DNA from: Pleomorphomonas carboxyditropha
GTDB lineage: Bacteria; Pseudomonadota; Alphaproteobacteria; Rhizobiales; Pleomorphomonadaceae
DNA length: 58,641 nucleotides
Direction of reading: 5' to 3'
Assembly (NCBI RefSeq): GCF_002770725.1
Contig: NZ_NQVN01000028.1
Location: 1-58,641, forward strand
This document shows, in pieces, positions 5,896 through 24,667 of this stretch. Under the pieces are notes generated by a model. It had not been told where the DNA came from. It did no database searches and worked only from the letters and a program-made list of their open reading frames with translations. The first letter of the stretch is position 1. Every line of letters begins with the position of its first letter. Position numbers and translations under genes: made by a program.

Positions 5896-6484
5896 GATCG
5901 AATGCTCCGTCAGGGACAACGGGCTATCCGCCGATTTTGTCCGAAGCGTAGTAAAGCTATTTCGATTTCCGGAATACAATCAGTCCATCATTCATTGTGG
6001 AAATGCAAGCTCTCAAGTCGGATGACTTGTGTAGACTCGCAAAATATGTTGCGGTCTGCATATATTAACGCTTGAAAAACTTTCGACATTTGGTCTCTAC
6101 GGAATTCTTTTCAAGGAAAACGACCGTGGCCTGGAGCATTCGCCCGGAAAGAGGGCTTGCGTGGAACGGACGGTGATCGCGCCGGCCAATGCGGGCACGG
6201 ACATTTGCCCGGGAGATGGGGAGGACGCCGAAGCGTTCCCATTCCGGCTCTCCTGGAATGTCGCCGGCCACTCCCGGAGGCTCTTTGAAAAGACACTCCG
6301 GCAATCGGCCCGGCCGGAGATGGAAATTGCCCTTCTGGCCGGCGCAAAGAAATTCCAGAACTGTCATCACCACCCGGCGCGTGCTGGAATGGGTTTCGGC
6401 AGCAGGGCAGGGGACGAAAAATCGTTCTCGGCGCTGTCCTGGGCGCCATGGCGAGCGCCGGATGATCAAGCTGGGAGTCCTTTT
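5896..6484. other. Intergenic region between the PAS-GGDEF-EAL gene and metY
   Basis: About 590 bases without a convincing gene; the frames running through it look like ordinary GC-rich noise. It holds the divergent promoters of the signalling gene and metY. A bulged dyad at 6033-6057 (AGAC-T-CGCAA / TTGCG-GTCT) is the best operator candidate. The metY side can fold locally: CGGGCA/TGCCCG at 6192-6211, CTCCGG/CCGGAG at about 6296-6319, and TTCTGG/CCAGAA at about 6333-6360. A degenerate copy of the dispersed repeat core is at 6131-6151. I could not match the leader to SAM-I, SAM-II or SAH riboswitch consensus cores by eye. Confidence 0.5.
6033..6057. promoter_or_regulatory. Candidate operator, bulged dyad
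   Basis: AGAC (6033-6036), a bulged T, CGCAA (6038-6042), six-base loop, TTGCG (6049-6053), GTCT (6054-6057). It lies in the divergent region between the cyclic di-GMP gene and metY, in an AT-richer patch where promoters are expected. No regulator can be assigned. Confidence 0.35.
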
Positions 6485-7804
6485 ATGAGCAAGTCGCTGC
6501 ATCCCGAGACCCTTGCGCTTCACGGCGGCAGTTTCCGCGCCGATCCGAGCACCGGCTCCGTCGCGGTGCCGATCCATCAGACCACCTCCTATCAGTTCCA
6601 GGATGCCGGCCATGCCGCCCGCCTGTTCGGCCTCGAGGAGCTCGGTTTCATCTACACGCGCATCGGCAATCCGACGCAGGATGCGCTTGAGACGCGCATC
6701 GCCGAGATCGAGGGCGGCGCCGCGGCCGTCGCCGTGTCGTCCGGCCAGGCGGCTTCGACCTTTGCCATCCTGAACGTCGCTTCGGCCGGCGACAACGTCG
6801 TCTCGTCGACCGACCTCTATGGCGGTACCTGGGCGCTGTTCGCCGATACGCTGAGCCAGTTCGGCGTCGAGGTCCGCTTCGTCGATCCGGCCGACCCTGA
6901 GAATTTCCGCAAGGCCACCGACGAGCGCACCCGCGCCTACTATGCCGAGCTGCTGCCCAATCCGAAGCTCAACGTCTTCCCGGTGAAGGAAGTCGCCGAC
7001 ATCGGCCGGCCGCTCGGCATTCCGCTGATCATCGACAACACGGCGGCGCCGATCCTGTCCAAGCCGTTCAAGCACGGCGCGGCGGTGGTGGTCTATTCGG
7101 CCACCAAGTATATCGGCGGCCACGGCACGACGATCGGCGGCCTGATCGTCGACGGCGGCAATTTCGACTGGGAGAGTTTCCCGGAGCGCCAGCCGCTGTT
7201 CAACACGCCCGACCCGGCCTATCATGGCGCCGTCTGGTCGCAGGCGGCCAAGCCGCTCGGCCCGATCGCCTATGCGTTGCGCGCCCGCGTCAAGCTGTTG
7301 CGCGACGTCGGCGCGGCGCTGTCGCCGTTCAACGCCTTCCAGCTCATCCAGGGCATCGAAACGCTGCCGCTCAGGATCCGCCAGCATGTGGCGAATGCCG
7401 AGAAGGTGGCCGATTACCTGACCAAGCACAAGGACGTGACGCGCGTCATCTATCCGAAGCTGCAGGAGGGCGAGTTCCGCCGCCGCGCCGACACCTACCT
7501 CGAAGGCGGCTACGGCGCGCTGCTCGGCTTCGAGCTGAAGGGCGGCGTCGAGGCCGGCAAGAAGTTCATCGACGCGCTGAAGCTGTTCTATCACGTCGCC
7601 AATATCGGCGATGCGCGGTCGCTGGCCATCCATCCGGCCTCGACGACGCATTCGCAGCTGACGCCCGAGGAGCAGCTCAAGACCGGCGTCACGCCCGGCT
7701 ACGTGCGCCTTTCCATCGGCATCGAGCACCCCGACGACATCATCGCCGATCTCGACCAGGCGCTTGCCGCCGCGTCGGCGCCGGTTGCCGTCGCCGCCGA
7801 GTGA
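6485..7804 (+). CDS. metY: O-acetylhomoserine sulfhydrylase (MetY), PLP-dependent
   Basis: Cytosolic PLP enzyme that makes homocysteine from O-acetylhomoserine and sulfide (direct sulfhydrylation). The 439-residue length is typical of MetY and longer than the usual ~390 of MetZ, MetB and MetC. Family signatures are SLHPETLALHGG, the YTRIGNPTQDALE segment, IPLIIDNTAA (PLP-ring Asp region) and VYSATKYIGGHG, with Lys208 as the Schiff-base lysine. ATG 6485 has TGGGAG seven bases upstream. A long leader of about 500 bases precedes it, which suggests leader-level control. It is followed by a strong terminator at 7826-7863, so it is probably monocistronic, although the next gene pair (msrPQ) also concerns methionine. 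Confidence 0.93.
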   Translation: MSKSLHPETLALHGGSFRADPSTGSVAVPIHQTTSYQFQDAGHAARLFGLEELGFIYTRIGNPTQDALETRIAEIEGGAAAVAVSSGQAASTFAILNVASAGDNVVSSTDLYGGTWALFADTLSQFGVEVRFVDPADPENFRKATDERTRAYYAELLPNPKLNVFPVKEVADIGRPLGIPLIIDNTAAPILSKPFKHGAAVVVYSATKYIGGHGTTIGGLIVDGGNFDWESFPERQPLFNTPDPAYHGAVWSQAAKPLGPIAYALRARVKLLRDVGAALSPFNAFQLIQGIETLPLRIRQHVANAEKVADYLTKHKDVTRVIYPKLQEGEFRRRADTYLEGGYGALLGFELKGGVEAGKKFIDALKLFYHVANIGDARSLAIHPASTTHSQLTPEEQLKTGVTPGYVRLSIGIEHPDDIIADLDQALAAASAPVAVAAE

Positions 7805-10809: not shown

Positions 10810-11388
10810 TCACAGGAGCGCTTCACCGTCGCTTGCTAGGATGCGGACGGCGAGGGCGGTCCCCGCCTCGTCGACCTCAAGCCGCACTTCGCTCTCCTGC
10901 CGGCACTCGATCAGTTCGCCCGTCCCGGCGCGGACCGTCGCGCCGCCGGTGGTGGCCACGACGCCGCCGCGCGCCGCGAAGACATAGGCGAGCGGGGCGG
11001 CCATGACGCCATTCCGGGCCGTCTCGACCTCGGCCGCGATCCTGCCGCGCGCCGTCATGACGTTGAAGTCGCGCGACGCACCGTGGACGGCGACGGCGGC
11101 CGTCGGCCAGTCGCCGGAAAAGGCCAGCGGCTCGAACGGCCGGAGCGGCACCGGCGGCCGCGCCCCGCCGAAATCGAGGTCGAATCCGGCGCCGTCGATC
11201 AGCGTGATCACCCGGTCGATGCCGGGCAGCGGCGAGAAGGGGCCGGGCTCGACGACGTCGGCGACCGACAGGCGCCAGAGCAGGGCGCCGGCCGCGTCGT
11301 CGCGCCGGACGAGCTCCAGCGTCGTGCCGCGACCGTTCTGCCAGGGCAGGCGGCGGAAATCGGCGGCCGTGAGAAGCCGCAGGCTCAT
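10810..11388 (-). CDS. hutD: HutD family protein
   Basis: Small cupin-like protein (192 residues) found with histidine-degradation genes; HutD is thought to limit or tune the pathway rather than catalyse a step. Recognisable family features are the opening [40 protein letters not shown] and [16 protein letters not shown]. The start ATG overlaps the hutU stop as ATGA, so it is the second gene of a hutU-hutD unit under the HutC-controlled promoter at 13087-13115. Confidence 0.88.
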
Positions 11389-13071: not shown

Positions 13072-13085
13072 CTTGTCTATACAAG
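13072..13085. promoter_or_regulatory. HutC operator at the hutU promoter
   Basis: Perfect 5-bp dyad CTTGT-CTAT-ACAAG. It begins one base downstream of the predicted hutU -10 box and covers the expected transcription start, so bound repressor would block initiation. The same dyad stands at 13992-14005. Confidence 0.85.
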
Positions 13086-13179: not shown

Positions 13180-13917
13180 TCACGTCATGCTGGCGCCCTG
13201 CCGGCTCTCGATGCGGCTGCGTCCGCCGGGCATCAGCAGCCGGACCGCGGTGACGACCCGTTCGCCGGCAAAGGTGCGGCGGCGGATCAGGAGGCAGGGG
13301 TCGCTGCGGGCGATGGCCAGCAGCTTGGCTTCCCAGGGGGCCGGCAGGACCGCCTCGACGGTATGCTCGACCGTCGTCCACGGCGCCACGGCGCTGAGGT
13401 AGCTGTTGGGCGTGCGGGCGGAAAAATCCTGGGTGAGATAGTCCGGCGCCAGGGCCGGGTTGACGTGCCGGTCCTCGAGCTGGACCGGGATGTCGTTTTC
13501 GAGGTGGATCACCAGCGAGTGGAACACCGGCGCGCCGAGCTCGACGCCCAGCTCGTCGGCGAGTTCCGGCGTCGCCTTCACCTCGTCCTTCATCACCGTC
13601 TGCGCCGCGTGGGCGTGGCCGCGCTCGCGGATCTCGTCGGCGATGTTGCGCACCTTGAACACCGAGGTCTGGCTCTTGCCCTCGGCGACGAAGGTCCCAA
13701 GACCCTGGATGCGCAGCAGCACGCCGTCCGCCGCCAGCTCGCGCAGCGCCCTGTTGATGGTCATGCGGCTGAGGCCGAGCGAGGCGACCAACTCGTTCTC
13801 CGAGGGAATGCGATGGCGGGCCGGCCATTCGCCGCTGCCGATGCGGGCGAGAATCATCTGCTTGACCATCGCGTAATGCGGGGGAGTCCCGGCGTGACGC
13901 GCGCTGACGTCGCTCAT
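13180..13917 (-). CDS. hutC: Histidine utilisation repressor HutC (GntR family)
   Basis: GntR/HutC-family repressor (245 residues) that releases DNA when urocanate binds. An N-terminal winged helix (about 15-80: YAMVKQMILARI, RIPSENELVASLGLSRMTINRALREL, IQGLGTFVAE) is followed by a UTRA ligand domain (about 95-235: RPVFHSL-like GAPVFHSLVIHLEN, PVQLEDRHVNP, and a closing VTAVRLLMPGGRSRIES). It sits between the two operons it is predicted to control, with CTTGT-N4-ACAAG operators at 13072 and 13992; the second lies in its own divergent upstream region, so autoregulation is likely. Confidence 0.93.
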   Translation of the reverse strand: MSDVSARHAGTPPHYAMVKQMILARIGSGEWPARHRIPSENELVASLGLSRMTINRALRELAADGVLLRIQGLGTFVAEGKSQTSVFKVRNIADEIRERGHAHAAQTVMKDEVKATPELADELGVELGAPVFHSLVIHLENDIPVQLEDRHVNPALAPDYLTQDFSARTPNSYLSAVAPWTTVEHTVEAVLPAPWEAKLLAIARSDPCLLIRRRTFAGERVVTAVRLLMPGGRSRIESRQGASMT

Positions 13918-13990: not shown

Positions 13991-14006
13991 GCTTGTATGT
14001 ACAAGC
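13991..14006. promoter_or_regulatory. HutC operator between hutC and hutF
   Basis: Perfect 6-bp dyad GCTTGT-ATGT-ACAAGC containing the CTTGT-N4-ACAAG core. It directly follows the predicted -10 box of hutF, 20 bases before the hutF ATG, and lies about 75 bases upstream of the divergent hutC start. Confidence 0.88.
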
Positions 14007-14025: not shown

Positions 14026-15402
14026 ATGGTAACAGATAACCATCAATTGCTTTTTGCCGAAAGGGCCTTGCTGGCCGACGGCTGGGCCGACGACGTCGTG
14101 CTCGCCATCGGCGCCGACGGCCGGATCGCCGCTTTGAAACAAGGGGCGTCGGCGGCCGGCGCCAGGCGCCTCGGCGGGCCGGTCGTTCCGGCGATCGCCG
14201 ACCTGCATTCCCACGCCTTCCAGCGCGCCATGGCCGGTCTGACGGAGGTTGCCGGGCAGGGCGACGACAGCTTCTGGACCTGGCGGGAGGAAATGTACCG
14301 GCTGGTGTCGCTGCTGACGCCCGACGATGTGGCGGCGATAGCGGCCAAGCTGCAAATCGAGCTGATGAAGGGCGGCTTCGGGCGCGTCGCCGAATTCCAT
14401 TATCTCCATCACGGCGCCGACGGCCGTCCCTATGGCGAGCCGGCCGAGATGTCGCTGGCCATCGTGCGGGCGGCCGAGCTGTCCGGCATCGGCCTGACGC
14501 TGCTGCCGGTGTTCTACGCCCATTCGGATTTCGGCGGCGTCGCGCCGACCGCCGGCCAGCGCCGGTTCATCCATGACGTCGACGGCTTCCTGACGCTGCT
14601 GCACGGCCTCGTCGCGCCCTGCCGGTCGGCGGGCGCCCGGCTCGGACTGGCGTTTCACTCGCTGCGGGCGGTGACCGGCGACGAGATCGCCGCCATCATG
14701 GAGGCGGTGCCCGAGCATGCGCCGATCCATATCCACGTAGCCGAGCAGGAGCGCGAGGTGGAAGCCTCGATCGCCCATTCCGGCCGCCGGCCGGTCGAGC
14801 GGCTCTATGACATCGCCGAGGTCGACGAGCGCTGGTGCCTCATCCACGCCACCCATGCCACCGAGGCCGAGGTGGCGATGATCGCCGGCTCGGGCGCCGT
14901 GGCCGGTCTCTGCCCGACGACCGAGGCCGATCTCGGGGACGGCATCTTCCCGGCGGCCGATTTTCTCGCCGCGGACGGGCGCTTCGGCATCGGGACCGAC
15001 AGCCACGTCGCCACCTCCGTCGCCGACGAACTGCGCCTTCTCGAATATGGCCAGCGGCTGCGCGATCGCCGGCGGAACCGGCTGGCCGGCCGGCCGGGAG
15101 CGTCGGTCGGCCGCACGCTGTTCGACCGCGCGCTTGCCGGCGGCGCCCAGGCGGCGGGCGCGGGCGGATCGGGCCTTTCCGTCGGCGCGCCGGCCGATCT
15201 CGTGGTGCTGGACGGCCGTTCGCCGTATCTCGCCTCGGTGGAGGGGGACGCGATTCTCGATCGCTGGATATTCGGCGGCGTCGGGCCGGCGGTTCGCGAC
15301 GTGATGGTCGGCGGCCGCTGGCTGATCGAGGATGGGCGCCACGCCAGGGACGAAGAGGTCGACCGGGCGTTTGCCGCTGCCCTTCAGCGCCTCAAGGCGT
15401 GA
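14026..15402 (+). CDS. hutF: Formimidoylglutamate deiminase (HutF)
   Basis: Amidohydrolase-family zinc enzyme converting N-formimino-L-glutamate to N-formyl-L-glutamate plus ammonia; the product is then cleaved by HutG-type N-formylglutamate deformylase. The 458-residue protein shows the metal HxH in IADLHSHAFQRAM, SFWTWREEMYRL typical of HutF, HIHVAEQEREVEA, CLIHATHATEAE and the late GIGTDSHVATSVADELR metal Asp. Its presence shows the two-step (HutF/HutG) variant of the pathway. It is the first gene of a rightward unit that continues with an ABC importer and the HutH homologue. Confidence 0.95.
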   Translation: MVTDNHQLLFAERALLADGWADDVVLAIGADGRIAALKQGASAAGARRLGGPVVPAIADLHSHAFQRAMAGLTEVAGQGDDSFWTWREEMYRLVSLLTPDDVAAIAAKLQIELMKGGFGRVAEFHYLHHGADGRPYGEPAEMSLAIVRAAELSGIGLTLLPVFYAHSDFGGVAPTAGQRRFIHDVDGFLTLLHGLVAPCRSAGARLGLAFHSLRAVTGDEIAAIMEAVPEHAPIHIHVAEQEREVEASIAHSGRRPVERLYDIAEVDERWCLIHATHATEAEVAMIAGSGAVAGLCPTTEADLGDGIFPAADFLAADGRFGIGTDSHVATSVADELRLLEYGQRLRDRRRNRLAGRPGASVGRTLFDRALAGGAQAAGAGGSGLSVGAPADLVVLDGRSPYLASVEGDAILDRWIFGGVGPAVRDVMVGGRWLIEDGRHARDEEVDRAFAAALQRLKA

Positions 15403-15485
15403 TATGTCTTTGACCTGACCGCTTGCCGTTGCGGAAAGAAATCAACAAGAAGCCGGAGCGCTTCGAAAAACCAGAGGAGAACACC

Positions 15486-16322
15486 ATGAACATCCGTAGT
15501 CTCGTTGCGGCGTCCGCCTTGTTTGCCGCGCTGGCCGCGCCGGCGTCGGCCAAGGAGTGGAAGGAAGTCACCATCGCGCTCGAAGGCGCCTATGCGCCGT
15601 GGAACCTCACCGACGCCAACGGCAAGATCGTCGGCTTCGAGCCGGACCTCACCGAATATCTCTGCGCCCACGCCAAGCTGAAGTGCACGCTGATCTCGCA
15701 GGACTGGGACGGCATGATCACCGCCCTCAACGCCGGCAAGTTCGACGTGATCATGGACGCGCTGTCGATCACCCCGGAGCGCAAGGAAGTGATCGACTTC
15801 ACCGTTCCCTATGCCGCGACGCCGGCCGTCTTCGCCGCGCCCAAGGATGGCGATCTCGCCAACCTCGCCGGCACCGGCTCGGTGATCAAGCTCGCCACCA
15901 CCAAGGACGGCGCCGACGCCATCGCCCCGCTCAAGACGGCGCTGACCGGCAAGACCATCGGCATCCAGGCGTCGACCGTCTACGCCGGCTTCATCTACGA
16001 CAACTTCAAGGACGTCGCCGAGATCAAGGAATACAAGACCTCGGCCGAACGCGACCTCGACCTGTCGGCCGGCCGCATCGACGCCGGCTTCGACGACGCC
16101 ACCTATTTCCTCGGCGCCTTCGAGAGCGCCGACAATGCCGATCTCGCCTTCACCGGCCCGGAAATCGCCGGCCAGATCTGGGGCGAGGGCGAAGGCCTCG
16201 GCATCCGCAAGTCCGATCCGGAGCTGAAGGCGCTGTTCGACGAGGCGATCAAGGCCGCCGTCGCCGACGGCACGGTGAAGACGCTGTCGGAGAAGTGGCT
16301 CAAGGTCGACGTCACCCCGTGA
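15486..16322 (+). CDS. Polar amino-acid ABC transporter, periplasmic binding protein (histidine-type)
   Basis: Family 3 solute-binding protein (278 residues) with a Sec signal ending ASA-KEW. The mature domain shows the usual features of lysine/arginine/ornithine/histidine binders: ALEGAYAPWNLTDANGKIVGFEPDL, SQDWDGMITALNAGKFDVIMDALSITPERKEVIDF and LGIRKSDPELK. GAGGAGA precedes ATG 15486. It follows hutF by 83 bases and precedes two permeases, an ATPase and the HutH homologue, which makes histidine or urocanate the most likely ligand; that is inference. An intercistronic hairpin (16336-16385) follows the stop. Confidence 0.88.
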   Translation: MNIRSLVAASALFAALAAPASAKEWKEVTIALEGAYAPWNLTDANGKIVGFEPDLTEYLCAHAKLKCTLISQDWDGMITALNAGKFDVIMDALSITPERKEVIDFTVPYAATPAVFAAPKDGDLANLAGTGSVIKLATTKDGADAIAPLKTALTGKTIGIQASTVYAGFIYDNFKDVAEIKEYKTSAERDLDLSAGRIDAGFDDATYFLGAFESADNADLAFTGPEIAGQIWGEGEGLGIRKSDPELKALFDEAIKAAVADGTVKTLSEKWLKVDVTP

Positions 16323-16385: not shown

Positions 16386-16403
16386 GCCCGACGGAGAGCC
16401 TTG

Positions 16404-17126
16404 ATGTCCTGGATTGACCTGATCGGCTTCGGCGAACAAGGCCGGGGCGGTATCCTCCTGTGGGCGATGGGCATAACGCTGGCCGTTACCGCCGCGTCGC
16501 TGTGCGTCGGCGCGGTGCTCGGCGCCATCATCGCGGCGGCCAAGCTGTCGGCGTCGCGGCCGGCCCGTTGGCTCGGGGATGCCTATACGACGGTGTTTCG
16601 CGGCGCGCCCGAGCTTCTGGTCATCTATCTCGTTTATTTCGGCGGCTCGCAGGCGGTGACCGCCATTGGAAAGTGGCTCAACTACGAGGGCTTTCTCGGG
16701 CTGCCGTCCTTCCTGGCCGGCGCCTTTGCCGTCGGGCTGATTTCCGGTGCCTATCAGGCGGAAGTCTACCGCGGCGCCTATCATGCCGTCTCCCGCGGCG
16801 AGATCGATGCCGCCCGTTCGATCGGCATGGGAACGATGCTGCGCTTCCGCCGCATCCTGGTGCCGCAGATCCTGCGGTTCTCCCTGCCGGGCCTCGGCAA
16901 TGTCTGGCAGCTCAGCCTGAAGGACTCGACGCTGATATCGGTGACGGGGCTTGCCGAGCTGATGCGGACGTCGCAGATCGCCGCCGGCTCGACCAAGCAG
17001 TATTTCCTGTTCTTCATCGTCGGCGGCGCGCTCTACCTCGTGCTGACGACGCTGTCCGACCGCATCTTCAGTTTCGCCGAGCGGCGGGTGGCGCGAAGCT
17101 TCCGCCACAGCCTCGGCCGGCGCTAG
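16404..17126 (+). CDS. Polar amino-acid ABC transporter permease, HisQ type
   Basis: Inner-membrane permease (240 residues) of the His/Glu/Gln/Arg family with about five helices. It carries the FRGAPELLVIYLVYFGG segment and the EAA-like ATPase contact EIDAARSIGMGTMLRFRRILVPQIL. ATG 16404 has GGAGAG upstream; a TTG lies three bases earlier. It pairs with the next permease as HisQ with HisM, 14 bases apart. Confidence 0.9.
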   Translation: MSWIDLIGFGEQGRGGILLWAMGITLAVTAASLCVGAVLGAIIAAAKLSASRPARWLGDAYTTVFRGAPELLVIYLVYFGGSQAVTAIGKWLNYEGFLGLPSFLAGAFAVGLISGAYQAEVYRGAYHAVSRGEIDAARSIGMGTMLRFRRILVPQILRFSLPGLGNVWQLSLKDSTLISVTGLAELMRTSQIAAGSTKQYFLFFIVGGALYLVLTTLSDRIFSFAERRVARSFRHSLGRR

Positions 17127-17140
17127 GAAAGGAGGACGCC

Positions 17141-17878
17141 ATGGATTTCGATGTCGCCTTCCTGGTCTCGACCTTTGTCAAGCTGGTCGACGCCGTGCCG
17201 ATGACGCTGGCGCTGTTCGCCGCCTCGGTCAGCCTCGGCGCGCTGTTCGCGCTCGGCATCACCTATTGCCGGGTGTCCGGCGGCTTGCTGCTGTCGACCT
17301 TTGCCCGCGCCTACGTCTTCGTGTTCCGCGGCTCGCCGCTGCTCATCCAGATGTTCCTGATCTACTACGGCCTCGGCCAGTTTCCGGCCGTCCGCCACAG
17401 CCTGTTCTGGCCGGTGCTGCGCGACCCCTTCTCCTGCGCCGTGCTGGCGCTCGCCCTCTGCACCGCCGGCTATCAGGCGGAGATCATGCGTGGCGGCTTG
17501 CAGGCGGTTCCCGCCCGCGAGATCGAGGCGGGCCGGGCGGCCGGCATGTCCGGCCTCCTGCTGTTCCGGCGCATCATCGCGCCGATCGCCATCCGGCAGG
17601 CGCTGCCGGCCTATTCGACCGAGGTCATCCTGATGGTGAAATCGACGGCGCTCGCCAGCCTCGTCACCGTCTGGGAAGTGACCGGCACGGCGCAGCGGCT
17701 GATTTCGCAGACCTATCGCACCATGGAGGTATTCCTGGTGGCGACGCTGATCTATCTTCTGATCAATTTCATCATTGTCCGCCTGATGGCCTTTGCCGAA
17801 TACCGGCTGTCGCCGCACCTCAGGGAGCGGCCGGATCCGGCAAGCGGCGGCGGACGCCAGGGAGAGGTTCATGGCTGA
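17141..17878 (+). CDS. Polar amino-acid ABC transporter permease, HisM type
   Basis: Second inner-membrane permease (245 residues). [17 protein letters not shown] and the EAA loop [33 protein letters not shown] are typical of HisM/ArtM. AAAGGAGG stands before ATG 17141. The last eight bases overlap the ATPase gene start, so the two are translationally coupled. Confidence 0.9.
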
Positions 17879-18650
17879 CGCCCCGGTGCCGGCAATTTCG
17901 GTCCGCAACATCCACAAGTCCTTCGGCCAGCACGAGGTTCTGCGCGGCATCTCGCTCGATGCCCACGACGGCGACGTGATCTCCATCCTCGGCGCTTCCG
18001 GTTCCGGCAAGAGCACCTTCCTGCGCTGCATCAACCTTCTGGAGACGCCGGACGAGGGCGAGATCACGGTGGCCGGCGAGGCCATCGCCATGAAGCGGAA
18101 CCGGGCGGGGTCGCTGGTGCCGGCCGACCGCAAGCAGGTCGACCGTATCCGTTCCGAGCTGGCCATGGTGTTCCAGAGCTTCAACCTCTGGTCCCACATG
18201 ACGGTGCTGCAGAACCTGATCGAGGGGCCGGTGCACGTCCTGAAGCGTCCGAAGGCGGAGTGCGTCGCGGAGGCGGAAGCGCTGCTCGAAAAGGTCGGCC
18301 TCGCCGAGCGGCGCAATTACTATCCCGCCCATCTGTCCGGCGGCCAGCAGCAGCGCGCCGCCATCGCCCGGGCGCTGGCCATGCAGCCGAAGGCACTATT
18401 GTTCGACGAGCCGACCTCGGCGCTCGATCCGGAACTGGTGGGCGAGGTGCTGAAGGTGATGCGATCGCTGGCCGAGGAGGGGCGGACCATGCTGGTGGTC
18501 ACCCACGAGATGGCGTTCGCCCGCAACGTCTCGGACCGGGTGATGTTCCTGCACGAGGGCGTCGTCGAGGCCGACGGCGCGCCGGAGGACATTTTCACCA
18601 ATTCCGAGTCCGAGCGCTTCCGCCAGTTCATCGGCGGCTTCCAGGCCTGA
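17871..18650 (+). CDS. Polar amino-acid ABC transporter ATP-binding protein, HisP type
   Basis: Cytosolic ATPase of the importer (259 residues). Walker [19 protein letters not shown], signature [17 protein letters not shown], Walker [15 protein letters not shown] and switch His in [16 protein letters not shown] are all intact. RDGQ-length variations such as [23 protein letters not shown] resemble HisP. The gene ends seven bases before the HutH homologue, supporting one transcript from hutF through this point. Confidence 0.93.
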
Positions 18651-18657
18651 GGACATC

Positions 18658-20139
18658 ATGACCGATATCGTCGTCGATACCCATCTCGGCTGGCGCGACG
18701 TCGCCGCCGTTGCCGAGGGCGCGCGTCTTCGTCTTTCGGAGGCGGCCAAGCAGCGCATCAACAACGCCCGGGCGGTGGTCGAGGCGATCGTCGATCGCGG
18801 CATGCGCGCCTATGGCGTCAATACCGGCGTCGGCGCCCTCTGCGACGTGGTGGTGGACCGGCCGCTGCAACGACAGCTGTCGCACAACATCCTGATGAGC
18901 CATGCCACCGGCATCGGCGCGCCGCTCGGCGCCGTCGAGACGCGGGCGATCATGGCGACGGCGATCGGCAACTACGCGCTCGGCCATTCCGGCGTCAGGC
19001 TGGAGGTGGTCGAGGCGCTGGCTGAGCTGCTCAATGCGGATGTGACGCCGCTGGTGCCGGCCAAGGGATCGGTCGGCTATCTCAGCCACATGGCGCATAT
19101 CGCCCTGGTGCTGATCGGCGCCGGCCGGGCGCGGGTGGAAGAGAAGATCGTCGCTGGCGCCGAGGCGCTCGCCGCGGCCGGCCTCGTTCCGCTGGAATTG
19201 GGCGCCAAGGAAGGGCTGTCGCTGGTCAACGGCATTCCCTGCGCCAGCGGGCTGGCGTCGCTGGCCCTGAAGCGGGCCGAGCGGGCGCTCGACTGGGCCG
19301 ACGCCATCGCCGCGCTGACCATCGAGGCGCTGATGGGCAATCCGGCGGCCTTCGACGCGGCGGCGCTGTCGCTTCGGGCCTCGCCCTCCCTTCAGGCCGT
19401 CGGTGCCGGATTGCGCGACCGGCTTGCCGGCAGCGGCATCATCGCCGCCGGTGCCGGCCGCAAGACGCAGGACGCCCTGTCGCTGCGCGCCGTGCCGCAC
19501 GTGCACGGGGCGGCGCGCGACGCCTTTGCCGCCGCCGCCGACGTGGTGTCGCGGGAGCTGTCGTCGGTGTCGGACAATCCGGCCATCGTCGGCACGCCGG
19601 AGGCGCCCGGCGTTCATTCGGAAGCGCACGCGGTCGGCGCCGCCATGGGCCTTGCCCTCGACCAGTTGGCGGTCGCCGTCGCCGAGGTGGCGGCGATGGC
19701 CGAGCGGCGCCTCGATCGCCTGGTCAACCCGCTGGTCAGCGGCTTGCCGGCTTTCCTCGCCGCCGACAGCGGCGTCAATTCCGGCTTCATGATCGCCCAG
19801 TACGCGGCGGTGTCGCTGGTCAACGAAAACCGGCGGCTGTCGCTACCGGCGAGCCTCGACGGCGGCATCACCTCGGCGCTGCAGGAGGACCACCTCAGCC
19901 ATGCGACGCCGGCGTCGCTGAAGGCGCTGACGGTGATCGAAAACGCCGAGGCCGTCCTCGGCATCGAGCTTCTGGCCGCGGCGCAGGCGCATGAATTCCG
20001 CCGCGAGGGCCGGGCGGCCGGCACGGATCGTCTTTATCGCCAATTGCGCACCGTCGTTCCGTCCTATGCCGACGACCGTCCGCTTGCCGACGACATGGCC
20101 CTGGCGGCCGACCTCATCCGGGCCACAGCGCCGGCCTGA
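18658..20139 (+). CDS. Histidine ammonia-lyase homologue lacking the MIO-forming Ala-Ser-Gly triad
   Basis: Full-length member (493 residues) of the aromatic amino-acid lyase family, in the position of hutH. Canonical HutH forms its MIO cofactor from Ala-Ser-Gly in GSVGASGDLAPLAHM; here residues 137-148 read GSVGYLSHMAHI, that is, the triad is gone with three residues deleted. Tyr280 of P. putida HutH (QDPYSLR) is Leu274 (QDALSLR). Other active-site residues remain: Tyr52 (YGVNTGVG), His82, Asn191, Arg277 and the late QEDH Glu. The reading frame is intact and codon use matches the neighbours, so it is not a decayed gene. Either it is a pseudo-enzyme, or it does non-MIO chemistry. It ends the HutC-controlled operon, so a role linked to histidine is likely. 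Confidence 0.85.
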   Translation: MTDIVVDTHLGWRDVAAVAEGARLRLSEAAKQRINNARAVVEAIVDRGMRAYGVNTGVGALCDVVVDRPLQRQLSHNILMSHATGIGAPLGAVETRAIMATAIGNYALGHSGVRLEVVEALAELLNADVTPLVPAKGSVGYLSHMAHIALVLIGAGRARVEEKIVAGAEALAAAGLVPLELGAKEGLSLVNGIPCASGLASLALKRAERALDWADAIAALTIEALMGNPAAFDAAALSLRASPSLQAVGAGLRDRLAGSGIIAAGAGRKTQDALSLRAVPHVHGAARDAFAAAADVVSRELSSVSDNPAIVGTPEAPGVHSEAHAVGAAMGLALDQLAVAVAEVAAMAERRLDRLVNPLVSGLPAFLAADSGVNSGFMIAQYAAVSLVNENRRLSLPASLDGGITSALQEDHLSHATPASLKALTVIENAEAVLGIELLAAAQAHEFRREGRAAGTDRLYRQLRTVVPSYADDRPLADDMALAADLIRATAPA

Positions 20140-20231: not shown

Positions 20232-20366
20232 CTATTTATTTCATCTATTAAAGTGTTGAATCCACTGCCGCTGCTCGCTTCTTCGCGCAGTGATTCAAGA
20301 TGGTCCGCAATGTGCTTCATGTTGTGAATCAGGTCGTTCCTCGCGGTGGGGTTGACTACGCAAATC

Positions 20367-20381
20367 TGCGAATGACTCGCA
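20367..20381. promoter_or_regulatory. Candidate Fur/Mur-type operator of the efe operon
   Basis: TGCGA-ATGAC-TCGCA is a perfect 5-bp dyad about 80 bases before efeU. Its size and TGC...GCA ends recall alphaproteobacterial Fur/Mur sites of the TGCAA-N5-TTGCA kind, but the match is loose; assignment rests on the iron-uptake genes behind it. Confidence 0.4.
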
Positions 20382-20461
20382 AAAACACTGATAGTGCTAT
20401 TGACAGGCGCGCTTTAAATGTTGAAAGCAAGTGTCACCTTATTGATCGGCAGGAGGCCGAG

Positions 20462-21307
20462 GTGCTTGCGCCATTTCTCATCATGCTGCGCGAGGGCATA
20501 GAGGCCGCGCTGGTGACCGGGATCATCGCGAGCTACCTCAAGCAGACGGGGCGAGGCGCTTTCCTGCCGGTGGTCTGGGTCGGCGTGTTTCTCGCCGTGG
20601 CGCTGTCGCTGTTTGCCGGCGCCGCCCTGCAATTGATGACCGCCGAGTTTCCCCAGAAGGCGCAGGAGCTGTTCGAGGCGATCGTCGGCTTCGTGGCGGT
20701 GGTCGTGCTGGTCAGCATGGTGTTCTGGATGCGGCGCGCCGCCCGCTCGATCAAGGGCGAGTTGCACGGGGCGATCGACGCCGCCATGCAGGCGCCGAAG
20801 GGCGCCACCTGGGCGCTGATCGGCATGACCTTCTTCGCCGTCGGGCGCGAGGGACTCGAGTCGGTCTTTTTCCTGCTGGCGATTTTCCAGCAGAGCCCCG
20901 GCGCCGGCGCGCCGCTTGGCGCTCTCCTCGGCCTGCTGGTGGCGGTGGCGCTGGGCTACGCGCTCTATCGCGGCGGCATCCGCCTCGATCTCCGGCGCTT
21001 CTTCCGCTGGACGGGCGTCTTCATTCTGGTGGTCGCCGCCGGGCTCGCCGCGGCCAGCCTGCGCAGCCTGCATGAAGCGGGCGTCTGGAACCTCCTGCAG
21101 GCGCGCGTCTACGATCTGTCCGACACGCTGCCGGTGTCGAGCGTCCTCGGCACCGTTCTGTCCGGCGTGTTCAACTATCAGGAGGCGCCGACGCTGGGCG
21201 AGGCGGTGCTCTATGTCGTCTTCCTCGCGGTGACGCTGACGCTGTTCCTGAAACCCGAGCGGCCGGTGTCGTTCCGGCCGGCCGCCGCCGGGACCGAGAA
21301 GGGGTAA
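20462..21307 (+). CDS. efeU: Iron permease EfeU (FTR1 family)
   Basis: Inner-membrane iron permease of the Ftr1/OFeT family (281 residues, seven predicted helices) that takes up iron after periplasmic processing by EfeO and EfeB. Both iron-binding REGLE-type motifs are present: IMLREGIEAAL and AVGREGLESVFF. The protein aligns with E. coli EfeU from its first residues (APFLIMLREG). I chose GTG 20462 because AGGAGG lies five bases upstream and the match begins there; the frame stays open further upstream without similarity. It ends three bases before efeO. Confidence 0.93.
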   Translation: MLAPFLIMLREGIEAALVTGIIASYLKQTGRGAFLPVVWVGVFLAVALSLFAGAALQLMTAEFPQKAQELFEAIVGFVAVVVLVSMVFWMRRAARSIKGELHGAIDAAMQAPKGATWALIGMTFFAVGREGLESVFFLLAIFQQSPGAGAPLGALLGLLVAVALGYALYRGGIRLDLRRFFRWTGVFILVVAAGLAAASLRSLHEAGVWNLLQARVYDLSDTLPVSSVLGTVLSGVFNYQEAPTLGEAVLYVVFLAVTLTLFLKPERPVSFRPAAAGTEKG

Positions 21308-21309
21308 GG

Positions 21310-22500
21310 ATGTCTTCGCCTGATCCGCAACGCGCCGGCGTGCCGTCGTCGCGACTGATGACCGTTGCCCTCGTCGGGGCGGCCGTGCTGGCGCTTGCCG
21401 GCGGCGGCGCCTTCTACTTCGCCTCGCAGAAGGCCGCCCGGCCGGTCGAGGCCGGCGCCATCGCCGTCCGCGTCGGCGCCAAGAGTTGCGAGCCGATGGA
21501 CCTGACGGTGCCGGCCGGCCGCAACGTGTTCGAGATCGAGAACGCGTCCGACCGGCCGATCGAATGGGAGATTCTCGACGGCGTCATGGTGGTGGAGGAG
21601 CGCGAGAACATCGCCCCCGGCTTCAAATCGCAGCTCACCGCGCGCCTCAAGCCCGGCACCTACGACATCACCTGCGGCCTCTTGTCCAACCCGCGCGGCA
21701 AGCTGACGGTGACCGCCTCGGCGCATTCGGAGGCGGAGAGGGCGAAGCCGCCGCTCAAGGCCTTCATCGGCCCGCTGTCCGAGTACAAGGTCTATCTCGC
21801 CCTGCAATCGGGCCAGATGAGCCAGGCGACCCAGGCGCTCGCGACGGCGGTGGATTCCGGCGACCTCGCGGCGGCCAGGACCGCCTATGCCGCCGCCCGG
21901 ATCGCCTACCGGCACGTGGAAGCGGTGAGCGGCCGCATCGCCGACATCGAGAACGCCATCGATCCGATCGCCGCCTATCTCGCCGGCCGCGAGCAGGATC
22001 CGGCCTTCACCGGCTTCCACCGCATCGAATTCGGCCTGTGGCACGAGAACTCGGCGGCCGGCCTCAAGCCGGTCGCCGACAAGCTGGCCGCCGACGCGGC
22101 GGCGCTGCGCGACCGGCTCAAGGCGTTGAAATTCGAGCCGGCCGACCTCGCCGGCAATGCGTCGCGCGAGGCGCGGCGGCTGGCCGAGGGGCCGATCGTG
22201 TCCGGCGACAGCCTCTATGCCGGCGACGACCTTAGTGAATTCGCCGCCGCCGTCGACGGGCTCGAAAAGCCGGTGTCGCTGCTGCTGCCGCTGGCCGGCG
22301 AGGCATCGCCCGACACGGCCAAGGCGGTGACCGACGCCTTCGCGGCGACGAGGGCCGAAATCGGCAAGCTCGGCGGGCCGGGCTCCGCGCCCGTCGCCTA
22401 TTCCGAAGTGCCGCCGGATGCCCGCAAGGCCCTCGCCGCCGCTTTCGTCGCGCTCGCCGATGCCGTCGACCGGATCAATCCGGCGCTCGGCCTGGAGTGA
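21310..22500 (+). CDS. efeO: EfeO: cupredoxin-imelysin periplasmic iron-binding protein
   Basis: Periplasmic component of the EfeUOB iron system (396 residues). An N-terminal hydrophobic anchor (about 16-38) is followed by a cupredoxin-like domain (about 45-140: CEPMDLTVPAGRNVFEIEN, YDITCGLLSNPRGKL) and an imelysin/M75 domain (about 145-396) with the GxHxxE metal motif in TGFHRIEFGLW. It therefore has both halves of the E. coli EfeO design. It lies between efeU and efeB in one tight operon. Confidence 0.93.
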   Translation: MSSPDPQRAGVPSSRLMTVALVGAAVLALAGGGAFYFASQKAARPVEAGAIAVRVGAKSCEPMDLTVPAGRNVFEIENASDRPIEWEILDGVMVVEERENIAPGFKSQLTARLKPGTYDITCGLLSNPRGKLTVTASAHSEAERAKPPLKAFIGPLSEYKVYLALQSGQMSQATQALATAVDSGDLAAARTAYAAARIAYRHVEAVSGRIADIENAIDPIAAYLAGREQDPAFTGFHRIEFGLWHENSAAGLKPVADKLAADAAALRDRLKALKFEPADLAGNASREARRLAEGPIVSGDSLYAGDDLSEFAAAVDGLEKPVSLLLPLAGEASPDTAKAVTDAFAATRAEIGKLGGPGSAPVAYSEVPPDARKALAAAFVALADAVDRINPALGLE

Positions 22501-22505
22501 ACACC

Positions 22506-23813
22506 ATGCTCGACCCGAAAGATCTCCGGCGCTCCTCGCCCTCTCTCGACCGCCGCCGGCTGCTCAAGGGGCTCGGCGTCACGGCGTTCGGCGGCTCGTT
22601 CGCCGGCGTCGCCCGTGCCGAGACCGAGCATCATTCGGTCGCCGATGCGCCGGTCGCCAACGCGGCAAGTCCGCTCGACAGCGTTCCCTACCTCGGCATC
22701 CATCAGGCCGGCATCGTCAACGCGCGCCCGGCCAACGGCATGGTGGCGAGCTTCGACGTGCTGGCCAAGGATGCGGGCGAGCTCGAGACGCTGTTCCGCC
22801 TGCTGACGGCGCGCATCGCCTTCCTGACCGTCGGCGGCCCGGTGCCGGTGCTCGATCCAAAGCTGCCGCCGGCCGATTCCGGCCTGCTGGGGCCGACGGT
22901 GCGGCCCGACAACCTGACGATCACCATATCGCTCGGCGCCTCGCTGTTCGACGACCGGCCGTGGCTTGCGCCGCTGAAGCCGAAGCATCTTCAGCGGATG
23001 ACGCGCTTTCCCAACGACGCGCTCGACGCCGACATCTGCCACGGCGATCTCACCATACAGATCTGCGCCAATACGCAGGATACGACGATCCATGCGCTCC
23101 GCGACATCATCAAGGCATCGAGCAGCCAGATGATCCTGAAGTGGAAGCAGGAAGGCAACGTGCCGGTGATCACGCCGGGGTCGGACGGCCGCGCCGAAAG
23201 CGCCCGCAACTTCCTCGGCTTCCGCGACGGCTCGGCCAATCCGAACTCCTCGGACGGCGCGGAAATGGACCGCGTGGTCTGGGTGGGGCCGGAGGACGGC
23301 GAGCCGGCCTGGGCGGTCGGCGGCAGCTATCAGGCGGTGCGCATCATCCGCAATTTCGTCGAACGCTGGGACCGCACGCCGTTCGGCGAGCAGGAGCGGA
23401 TCATCGGCCGCACCAAGATTTCCGGCGCGCCGCTCGACCGGCGGGACGGCAGCGAGTTCGACGTGCCCGACTATGCCGGCGATCCCGAGGGCAAGGCGAC
23501 GCCCCACGACGCCCATATCCGCCTCGCCAACGCCCGCGACGCGGCGGCGAGCACCAATACCATCCTGCGGCGGCCGTTCAACTACTCGAACGGCGTCACC
23601 CGCTCCGGCCAGCTCGACCAGGGCCTGTTGTTCATCTGCTACCAGGCCGACCTCGAACGGGGCTTCCTCACCGTGCAGCAAAAGCTCAACGGCGAGCCGC
23701 TGGAGGAATACATCAAGCCGGTCGGCGGCGGCTATTTCTACACGCTTCCCGGAATTCGCGACGCCGCCGACTATGTCGGCAGCCCGCTGATCGCCGCTGT
23801 CCGCGGTGCCTGA
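22506..23813 (+). CDS. efeB: EfeB: Tat-exported DyP-type haem peroxidase
   Basis: Periplasmic dye-decolorising peroxidase of the EfeUOB system (435 residues), proposed to oxidise ferrous iron for EfeU or to process haem. A twin-arginine signal (RRRLLKGLGVTAFGG, ending VARA) precedes the domain. The DyP signature GFRDGSANP, the haem-side PHDAHIRLAN histidine region and RRPFNYSNGV are visible. ATG 22506 has GGAG eight bases upstream; a GTG at 22497 overlaps the efeO stop and is the alternative start. Confidence 0.93.
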   Translation: MLDPKDLRRSSPSLDRRRLLKGLGVTAFGGSFAGVARAETEHHSVADAPVANAASPLDSVPYLGIHQAGIVNARPANGMVASFDVLAKDAGELETLFRLLTARIAFLTVGGPVPVLDPKLPPADSGLLGPTVRPDNLTITISLGASLFDDRPWLAPLKPKHLQRMTRFPNDALDADICHGDLTIQICANTQDTTIHALRDIIKASSSQMILKWKQEGNVPVITPGSDGRAESARNFLGFRDGSANPNSSDGAEMDRVVWVGPEDGEPAWAVGGSYQAVRIIRNFVERWDRTPFGEQERIIGRTKISGAPLDRRDGSEFDVPDYAGDPEGKATPHDAHIRLANARDAAASTNTILRRPFNYSNGVTRSGQLDQGLLFICYQADLERGFLTVQQKLNGEPLEEYIKPVGGGYFYTLPGIRDAADYVGSPLIAAVRGA

Positions 23814-23848
23814 TCCCGCATTCATTTTCATGAAGGGAGACTGAAAAC

Positions 23849-24667
23849 ATGCGTATTTCCAGCTTCGCCAGCGCTTCGGCGCTGGCGCTCATCCTTTCGT
23901 CCGGCGCCTTCGCCCAGGAGGCCAGCCTCGACCTCGTCGAGCCGATCGCCGACTACAAGATCTACGTTTCGGAAAACGTCGCCAAGCTGGTAGAGGACAC
24001 CACCGCGTTTGTCGCCGCCGTCAAGGCCGGCGAGGTGGACAAGGCCAAGGAGCTGTTCGCGCCGACCCGCATCTCCTACGAGGCGATCGAGCCGATCGCC
24101 GAGCTGTTCTCCGACCTCGACGTCGCCATCGACTCGCGCGCCGATGACTACGAGAAGGCCGAGGCCGATCCGGAATTCCCCGGCTTCCACCGCATCGAAT
24201 ACGGCCTGTGGGAGAAGAACTCCACCGAGGGTCTCGAACCGGTGGCCGACAAGCTGCTCGCCGACGTCAAGGAACTCGAGGGCCGCATCGCCTCGCTGAC
24301 CTTCCCGCCGGAGAAGGTGGTGGGCGGCGCCGCCGTGCTGATGGAAGAAGTGGCGGCCACCAAGATTTCCGGCGAGGAAGACCGCTACAGCCACACCGAC
24401 CTCTGGGACTTCCGCGGCAACTTCGACGGCGCCCGCAAGATCGTCGAGCTGGTGCGGCCGCTGATCGCCGACAAGGAAGCCGACTTCCTGAAGACGGTGG
24501 ACGCCAATTTCGACACCGTCGACACGACGCTGGCCAAGTACAAGGACGGCGACGGCTACGTCACCTACGACAAGCTCACCGAGGACGATCGCAAGGTGCT
24601 GGCGGCGGCGGTCAACACGCTCGCCGAGGACCTGTCGACTTTGCGCGGCAAGCTCGGCCTTGACTGA
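23849..24667 (+). CDS. Imelysin-family protein without cupredoxin domain (EfeM-like)
   Basis: Secreted M75-type iron-binding protein (272 residues) with a Sec signal ending AFA-QEA. The imelysin domain spans almost all of the mature protein and has the GxHxxE motif in PGFHRIEYGLWEKN, closely matching the one in EfeO. It lacks the N-terminal cupredoxin domain, so it resembles the EfeM subgroup. GGGAGA precedes the ATG. It follows efeB by 35 bases and is closed by a strong terminator, so it is the fourth gene of the efe operon, giving the system two imelysin components. Confidence 0.9.
   Translation: MRISSFASASALALILSSGAFAQEASLDLVEPIADYKIYVSENVAKLVEDTTAFVAAVKAGEVDKAKELFAPTRISYEAIEPIAELFSDLDVAIDSRADDYEKAEADPEFPGFHRIEYGLWEKNSTEGLEPVADKLLADVKELEGRIASLTFPPEKVVGGAAVLMEEVAATKISGEEDRYSHTDLWDFRGNFDGARKIVELVRPLIADKEADFLKTVDANFDTVDTTLAKYKDGDGYVTYDKLTEDDRKVLAAAVNTLAEDLSTLRGKLGLD

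Follow-up and report, generated by a model that had tools for sequence, protein, structure and literature searches.

The locus examined here lies in a 58,641-nucleotide contig of Pleomorphomonas carboxyditropha, the whole of which is referred to below as the window. A hutD-like gene, hutU and hutC lie on the reverse strand and, divergent from these, hutF, genes for a periplasmic binding protein, two permeases and an ATPase, and finally a homolog of histidine ammonia-lyase (HutH) follow one another on the forward strand (Table 1). An earlier sequence-only reading of this DNA had placed the lyase gene in an importer operon with hutF, and we recovered this arrangement, with hutF and the ABC importer upstream of the gene and in the same direction. 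The palindromes CTTGTATGTACAAG and CTTGTCTATACAAG belong to a pattern for which, even with up to one mismatch allowed, 0.03 occurrences are expected in the window; they are putative HutC operators, as suggested by their placement and by known HutC sites. The genome also encodes an MIO-type HutH, which is located on another contig and adjoins a putative imidazolonepropionase-like frame recognised by eye. Beyond the lyase, at 20300-24664, the window carries iron uptake genes of the EfeU-EfeO-EfeB (Dyp peroxidase) type; a further EfeO-like protein is encoded at 23849.

Table 1. Features of the lyase locus, with positions counted from the first nucleotide of the window.
Feature	Position	Strand	Basis
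hutD/Ves-like gene, boundaries approximate	10810..11388	-	profile search
hutU, ordinary urocanase, sole urocanase found in genome	11385..13058	-	hutU profile, 979.6 > 375
Palindrome CTTGTCTATACAAG, HutC-operator-like, precedes hutU	13072..13085		pattern search
hutC, GntR-type repressor, divergent	13180..13917	-	TIGR02018, 294 > 220
Palindrome CTTGTATGTACAAG, HutC-operator-like, precedes hutF-importer-lyase	13992..14005		pattern search
hutF, formimidoylglutamate deiminase	14026..15402	+	TIGR02022, 663 > 413
Periplasmic binding protein, nearest in solved structure to octopine- and nopaline-binding proteins	15483..16322	+	structure-chain comparison
ABC importer permease 1	16401..17126	+	PF00528
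ABC importer permease 2, HisM/ArtM-like; start is first in-frame ATG	17141..17878	+	profile search, reading frame
ABC importer ATPase, HisP-like	17871..18650	+	PRK10619, 357.6 bits, below cut-off of 466
HutH paralogue without MIO (493 aa), a proposed hercynine trimethylamine-lyase	18658..20139	+	Pfam PF00221, NCBIfam hutH, clade analysis
GSVG-Y-LSHMAHI, in place of deleted Ala-Ser-Gly MIO triad, Tyr141 instead	19066..19101	+	alignment, clade comparison

Relative to P. putida HutH, the window lyase, whose frame is intact over all 493 codons, lacks exactly three residues at the Ala-Ser-Gly triad (residues 137-148, GSVGYLSHMAHI), and Leu replaces Tyr280 within QDALSLR (residues 271-277), as the sequence-only reading had claimed for both the in-frame deletion and the loss of the catalytic Tyr. 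A further change, missing from the list in that reading, is the replacement by Ala of Phe329, a residue situated beside MIO in HutH. The substrate-side residues listed there as kept (Tyr52, His82, Asn191, Arg277 and QEDH, from residue 409) were all found in the translation, and the alignment shows Tyr53, His83, Asn195, Gln277, Arg283 and Glu414 (HutH numbering) to be retained. With a PF00221 score of 492.6 bits, against a gathering cut-off of 27.3, the protein belongs at full length to the aromatic amino acid lyase superfamily, and its score of 474.5 for the NCBIfam hutH equivalog falls below the cut-off of 539.15. In a confident AlphaFold2 model built from 35 aligned sequences (pLDDT 90.7, pTM 0.92), the top PDB matches were HutH structures (P. 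putida 1b8f/1gkj/1eb4; E 1e-36, TM 0.92, 38% identity). The window lyase shares with HutH, its best fold match, the substrate-side residues, but differs in the replaced MIO triad, Tyr280 and Phe329 and in its sub-threshold hutH score.

Relatives of the lyase form a discrete group, being present at 49% identity or more in 21 of 297 genomes drawn from the order and at 46% or more in 23 of 398 drawn from the phylum, with the next matches in both draws at no more than 43%. Together the two draws yielded 39 clade genomes, 5 of which were shared. For residue comparisons we used 41 sequences (from 35 clade genomes, plus three each from named MAG contigs and from plasmid records), extended with the last four clade genomes to 45, the window lyase included. 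All 45 carry GS-x-G-Tyr with the three-residue gap in place of Ala-Ser-Gly, together with Leu at 280, which excludes chance or a sequencing error; this disposes of the objection, raised in the sequence-only reading, that a corrected sequence might restore the triad, and establishes the deletion and the Tyr-to-Leu change as properties of a clade. Tyr53, His83, Gln277, Arg283 and Glu414 are present in 41 of 41 sequences and Asn195 in 40, while position 329 is occupied by Ala (29), Pro (11) or Thr (1). None of the 41 contains a stop codon, and dN/dS over five within-genus pairs is approximately 0.1 (dN 0.06-0.07, dS 0.60-0.70). The clade is thus under purifying selection and, with its residues conserved throughout, agrees with the maintained new role proposed earlier.

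In a quick tree of 72 hand-picked rows, from which the MIO columns were omitted, the 28 clade rows fell on one side of a single branch apart from HutH (SH-aLRT 100). Named members include the alphaproteobacteria Pleomorphomonas, Afifella, Rhizobium and Sinorhizobium and the betaproteobacterium Burkholderia, and hut gene order suggests that gammaproteobacterial members probably also exist. Among plasmids, 889 records match, 121 of them at 60-80% identity. Urocanase was present in all 21 clade genomes of the order draw. One clade lyase (G333; locus L208, 4729-8061) has neither hut genes nor a recognised importer around it; its neighbours include dioxygenases of the TauD and PhyH types and a putative LysR-like frame noted by eye. 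Judged by these sequences, the clade appears to be a widespread sister family of HutH that lacks MIO and is distinct from ergothionase.

The T. denticola MIO-less ergothionase was reportedly described by Maurer et al. 2019. The sequence-only reading had known of no described MIO-less subfamily, a statement that is contradicted by this enzyme, a HutH-fold homologue without MIO according to the passages on it in PMC13405746 (PDB 6s7j/6s7q). By analogy, ergothionase is a precedent for MIO-free elimination of trimethylamine. That the window lyase itself converts ergothioneine to thiourocanate and trimethylamine is a reading to which we assign a very low probability. The two proteins share the HutH fold (6s7j ranks 13th among PDB matches of the model), the absence of Ala-Ser-Gly, the residues Tyr53, His83, Gln277, Arg283 and Glu414, and Leu at 280, which occurs in 28 of 28 clade rows and in all six ergothionase-type rows (the known MIO-less trimethylamine-lyase itself, and five relatives whose function is unproved). 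Furthermore, an AU test did not reject a joint group of clade and ergothionase-type rows (p 0.59), and the tree constrained to that group even outscored the quick free tree, by 3.19 log units. However, identity to 6s7j is only 26%, as against 38% to HutH, and the loop common to all six ergothionase-type rows has a one-residue gap followed by Gly/Ala-Asp (SSIGE-GD), as opposed to the three-residue gap of the window lyase. Ergothionase also has Ser at Asn195 and keeps Phe at 329, and five of the six rows carry a Lys (residue 383 of the 6s7j chain), probably a mark of the ergothionase family, where the window lyase has Tyr. Finally, the product of ergothionase needs a thiourocanate hydratase, whereas the lyase has in its cluster a true HutU, the single urocanase of the genome, which scores 683.9 against the thiourocanate hydratase cut-off of 930. 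On sequence, loop and hydratase, ergothionase proper was therefore set aside.

The differing gaps suggest that MIO may have been lost independently in the two groups, but the AU test, in not rejecting the joint group, is compatible with a single loss as well. Leu280 is not exclusive to MIO-less proteins, since it is also found in a HutH-like row with Ala-Cys-Gly (L121). This protein, in which the motif reads LRDGLSLR, and a second one (L137) with Ala-Cys-Gly for Ala-Ser-Gly occur beside urocanase-type genes and form a separate deep branch. Of three loci examined with a gene above the thiourocanate hydratase cut-off, one has an ergothionase-type lyase (L166), one a lyase retaining Ala-Ser-Gly (L167), and one no lyase within 20 kb (L165). 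In a class sample of 190 genomes, 52 matched this profile, which also recognises ordinary urocanases; the figure serves for orientation only. Ergothionase-type lyases were also seen on plasmids of Polaromonas and R. leguminosarum (L171, L174), near a LysR regulator and a gene for a YeiH-type or sulfate exporter, a setting that could belong to a pathway for ergothioneine sulfonate. In Sinorhizobium sp. B11 (L173, 7992-9476), another such lyase, with GSIGA-GD, QDPLSLR and Arg at His83, shares a gene row with ornithine cyclodeaminase-like and LLM flavin genes.

For a spare HutH, one would expect the clade loci to resemble other hut loci. We therefore compared 40 clade loci, leaving out three duplicates (L035, L039 and L040, of G260, G223 and G107), with 40 hut loci of genomes lacking the clade; these controls were hand-picked and non-random, and three of their anchors (L233, L248, L249) are only 39-42% identical to the HutH of the window genome and may be another lyase. 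Importers were classified by tblastn with genes of the window, of L160 and L209, and of a few of their kin. A recognised importer on the same strand within 4.5 kb was found at 34 of the 40 clade loci, compared to 1 of the 40 controls (Fisher p 5e-15, kinship ignored); disregarding strand and extending the distance to 7 kb gave 34 and 4, the control matches (L217, L220, L233, L237) having binding proteins 25-40% identical to the queries. The sequence-only reading had asked whether the gene always sits beside such an importer: it does so at most loci but not at the remaining six, all counted as having none, in which no recognised importer lies beside the lyase (L153, L163, L164, L207, L208) or the contig ends (L038). 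The importers comprised His/opine-type ABC systems at 24 loci, ProU-like betaine ABC systems at eight and BCCT carriers at two. In the ProU-like set of L160, an OpuAC domain (PF04069, 199 bits) accompanies a ProW/ChoW-like permease, both below NCBIfam equivalog cut-offs, while the carrier of L209 scores 399.7 bits for Pfam BCCT and is 71% identical to its counterpart in L210. Both BCCT and ProU-type carriers are known for the transport of quaternary ammonium compounds. At L209, a second lyase of ergothionase-like appearance (5043-6518; GSLGAADLAQL and LQDPLSYR) lies beyond hutI and hutG from the clade member.

The surroundings of the importer-lyase module vary between genomes. The palindrome TTGT-N4-ACAA occurs at least once in 26 of 41 clade loci and is absent from the other 15; it precedes modules outside hut operons at four loci (L149, L150, L169, L204) and the importer at two (L203, L211). 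R. etli p42e carries a separate hutC-importer-lyase module next to a complete hut operon, which has a hutH and a hutC of its own. In Burkholderia pyrrocinia, hutC is the sole hut companion of the module: a gene table that is itself incomplete shows no further hut gene within 12 kb, and tblastn likewise found none there, neither another hutH nor a hutU. In many genomes the clade lyase is located inside hut clusters. It adjoins a true hutH at L200, L201 and L213, where the genes run hutU, OpuAC-ProW-ProV, MIO-less lyase, true HutH, hutI, hutG (with a cytosine/purine-type permease gene after hutU at L201, in the position of hutTu), and lies near one at L152 and L158. In S. chiapasense (L170), hutC, a ProU-like ABC system and the MIO-less lyase follow in that order, for which hutXWV-hutH2 of S. 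meliloti is presumably the counterpart.

Such adjacency, together with the loss of MIO, Tyr280 and Phe329, would be in keeping with a catalytically dead paralogue that senses histidine or urocanate or serves the true HutH as a partner subunit, two of the three options offered by the sequence-only reading. We consider this improbable, given the stand-alone Burkholderia module, the location of the true HutH of the window genome on a different contig, and the presence of His83, Arg283 and Glu414 in 41 of 41 sequences; moreover, the loss of MIO and Leu280 are common to ergothionase, an active enzyme, and HutC already answers to urocanate as a signal (PMC8871633). What finds support is the lyase of the third option, a non-MIO lyase or isomerase.

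A published trace of the clade may exist in P. fluorescens SBW25. The sections of a review that concern this system give the gene order hutU, hutTu, hutXWV, hutH1, hutH, implicate HutXWV in histidine uptake, and state that hutH1 is dispensable for growth on histidine (PMC8871633). This order fits that of L200, L201 and L213, in which the first of two lyases is MIO-less, and by synteny, as distinct from sequence, hutH1 would be a clade member; the review's passages on hutH1 make no mention of MIO (PMC8871633). The dispensability of hutH1 argues also against the reading that the clade enzyme is an ordinary histidine ammonia-lyase working without MIO. Its HutH-like imidazole and carboxylate residues and its frequent location inside hut clusters are in keeping with that role, to which we nevertheless give the slightest of chances, with an MIO-type HutH in the same genome and the importers of the clade rare in hut loci that lack it.

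We propose instead that the lyase is an MIO-independent enzyme of the HutH fold that converts hercynine (histidine betaine; N,N,N-trimethyl-L-histidine) to urocanate and trimethylamine, the urocanate passing to HutU-HutI-HutF-HutG and inducing the cluster via HutC, a reading to which we assign a probability of roughly 55%. Following the catalytic roles of HutH residues, the imported histidine relative would carry a quaternary alpha-ammonium, with ring and carboxylate held by His83, Glu414 and Arg283, and the trimethylammonium group would be accommodated by Tyr141 together with the space vacated by MIO, Tyr280 and Phe329. Tyr53 (Tyr52 in the window lyase) would take the beta proton, trimethylamine would leave and urocanate would form, to be passed to HutU and then HutI-HutF-HutG; urocanate would also lift HutC, thereby inducing the cluster. 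An MIO electrophile would be unneeded, because the quaternary ammonium is a leaving group from the outset. The importer, the HutC-like operators, the retained imidazole and carboxylate residues, the loss of the electrophile-side set and the entry of urocanate through a true HutU appear to be supported by sequence, while the identity of the substrate, trimethylamine as leaving group, Tyr52 as base and the trimethylammonium pocket are predictions; hercynine itself is guessed from the chemistry, the classes of importer and the point of entry into the pathway.

Several observations argue for hercynine. The deletion, Tyr141 and Leu280 are clade-wide and the substrate residues kept, with Leu280 common to the ergothionase-type rows; the importer link extends to betaine-type (8) and BCCT (2) carriers; a true HutU is near, urocanase is found in clade genomes, and HutC-like palindromes precede stand-alone modules too; and, given the MIO-type HutH of the window genome, a second histidase would be redundant. 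In addition, a gene above the N-methyl-L-tryptophan oxidase cut-off (NF008425, 416 > 257) starts 10 bases after the end of the lyase in G187, and may, as a guess, clear partly methylated histidines. Against hercynine, the most frequent class of importer, the His/opine type at 24 of 40 loci, does not itself indicate a betaine; six of 40 loci have no recognised importer and 15 of 41 no palindrome; in L161, a genome related to G187, the oxidase-like gene does not adjoin the lyase; Leu280 is shared with L121; and the ergothionase-type Lys is absent from the window lyase. The binding proteins of the modules also keep, in 28 of 28, the Asp by which HisJ-type proteins hold a free alpha-ammonium. HutXWV of P. 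fluorescens, moreover, is credited with histidine uptake (PMC8871633). Sensing of PCA by P. aeruginosa HutC is reported in the title of a further paper (PMC12772324), so that urocanate may not be the only signal of HutC, and HutC control alone is thus no proof of a urocanate product.

A related reading is that the enzyme makes urocanate or a close analogue, again without MIO, from another imported imidazole such as a histidine with one or two methyl groups, or an opine or other conjugate of histidine. The similarity of the window binding protein to octopine- and nopaline-binding proteins, the FAD oxidases of N-methyl or D-amino acid type beside some modules, and the varying transporter type all lend it some weight. 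However, the binding proteins of the modules differ from both opine-binding proteins at Asp92, Tyr167 and Asp205, which are invariant in 28 of 28 and would fit a strongly cationic ligand but also free histidine, and the BCCT and ProU-like carriers at 10 of 40 loci favour a quaternary ammonium compound. Since secondary and tertiary amines are not pre-activated leaving groups, the loss of MIO would also be harder to explain, and we regard such a substrate as possible but unlikely.

Returning to hercynine, two further candidates for support were rejected. Trimethylamine-N-oxide demethylase (Tdm) exceeded its cut-off in 9 of 21 clade genomes and in 52 of 276 others (Fisher p 0.02, kinship ignored), but in none of the five clade genomes of the window genus, where trimethylamine use is therefore unsupported. 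A DMGDH-like oxidase near the R. etli module is two genes away and convergent.

More broadly, we give even odds to a scenario in which the clade provides the entry enzyme of bacterial hercynine catabolism. The HutH fold would then have a second, structurally different way of eliminating trimethylamine without MIO, with Tyr in its place; the genes, annotated as hutH and accompanied by those of dedicated importers in soil- and plant-associated Proteobacteria, would include the one for the pseudomonad histidase that is dispensable for growth on histidine. Hercynine is a compound of fungi, actinobacteria and cyanobacteria, and we know of no enzyme for its catabolism; among the matches listed in open PMC papers, we found no description of a hercynine lyase or of an MIO-independent relative of this kind. 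If the proposal is true, the lyase would be a sink for hercynine and an added source of trimethylamine, and would offer a reason why one of two hutH copies in P. fluorescens is dispensable. Two MIO-less groups in one fold, both without Tyr280, also present a natural comparison of the purpose of MIO. Lastly, many hutH-labelled genes may not encode histidine ammonia-lyases: among the matches listed, 52 of 60 plasmid records, which are clade-level matches, carry that label.
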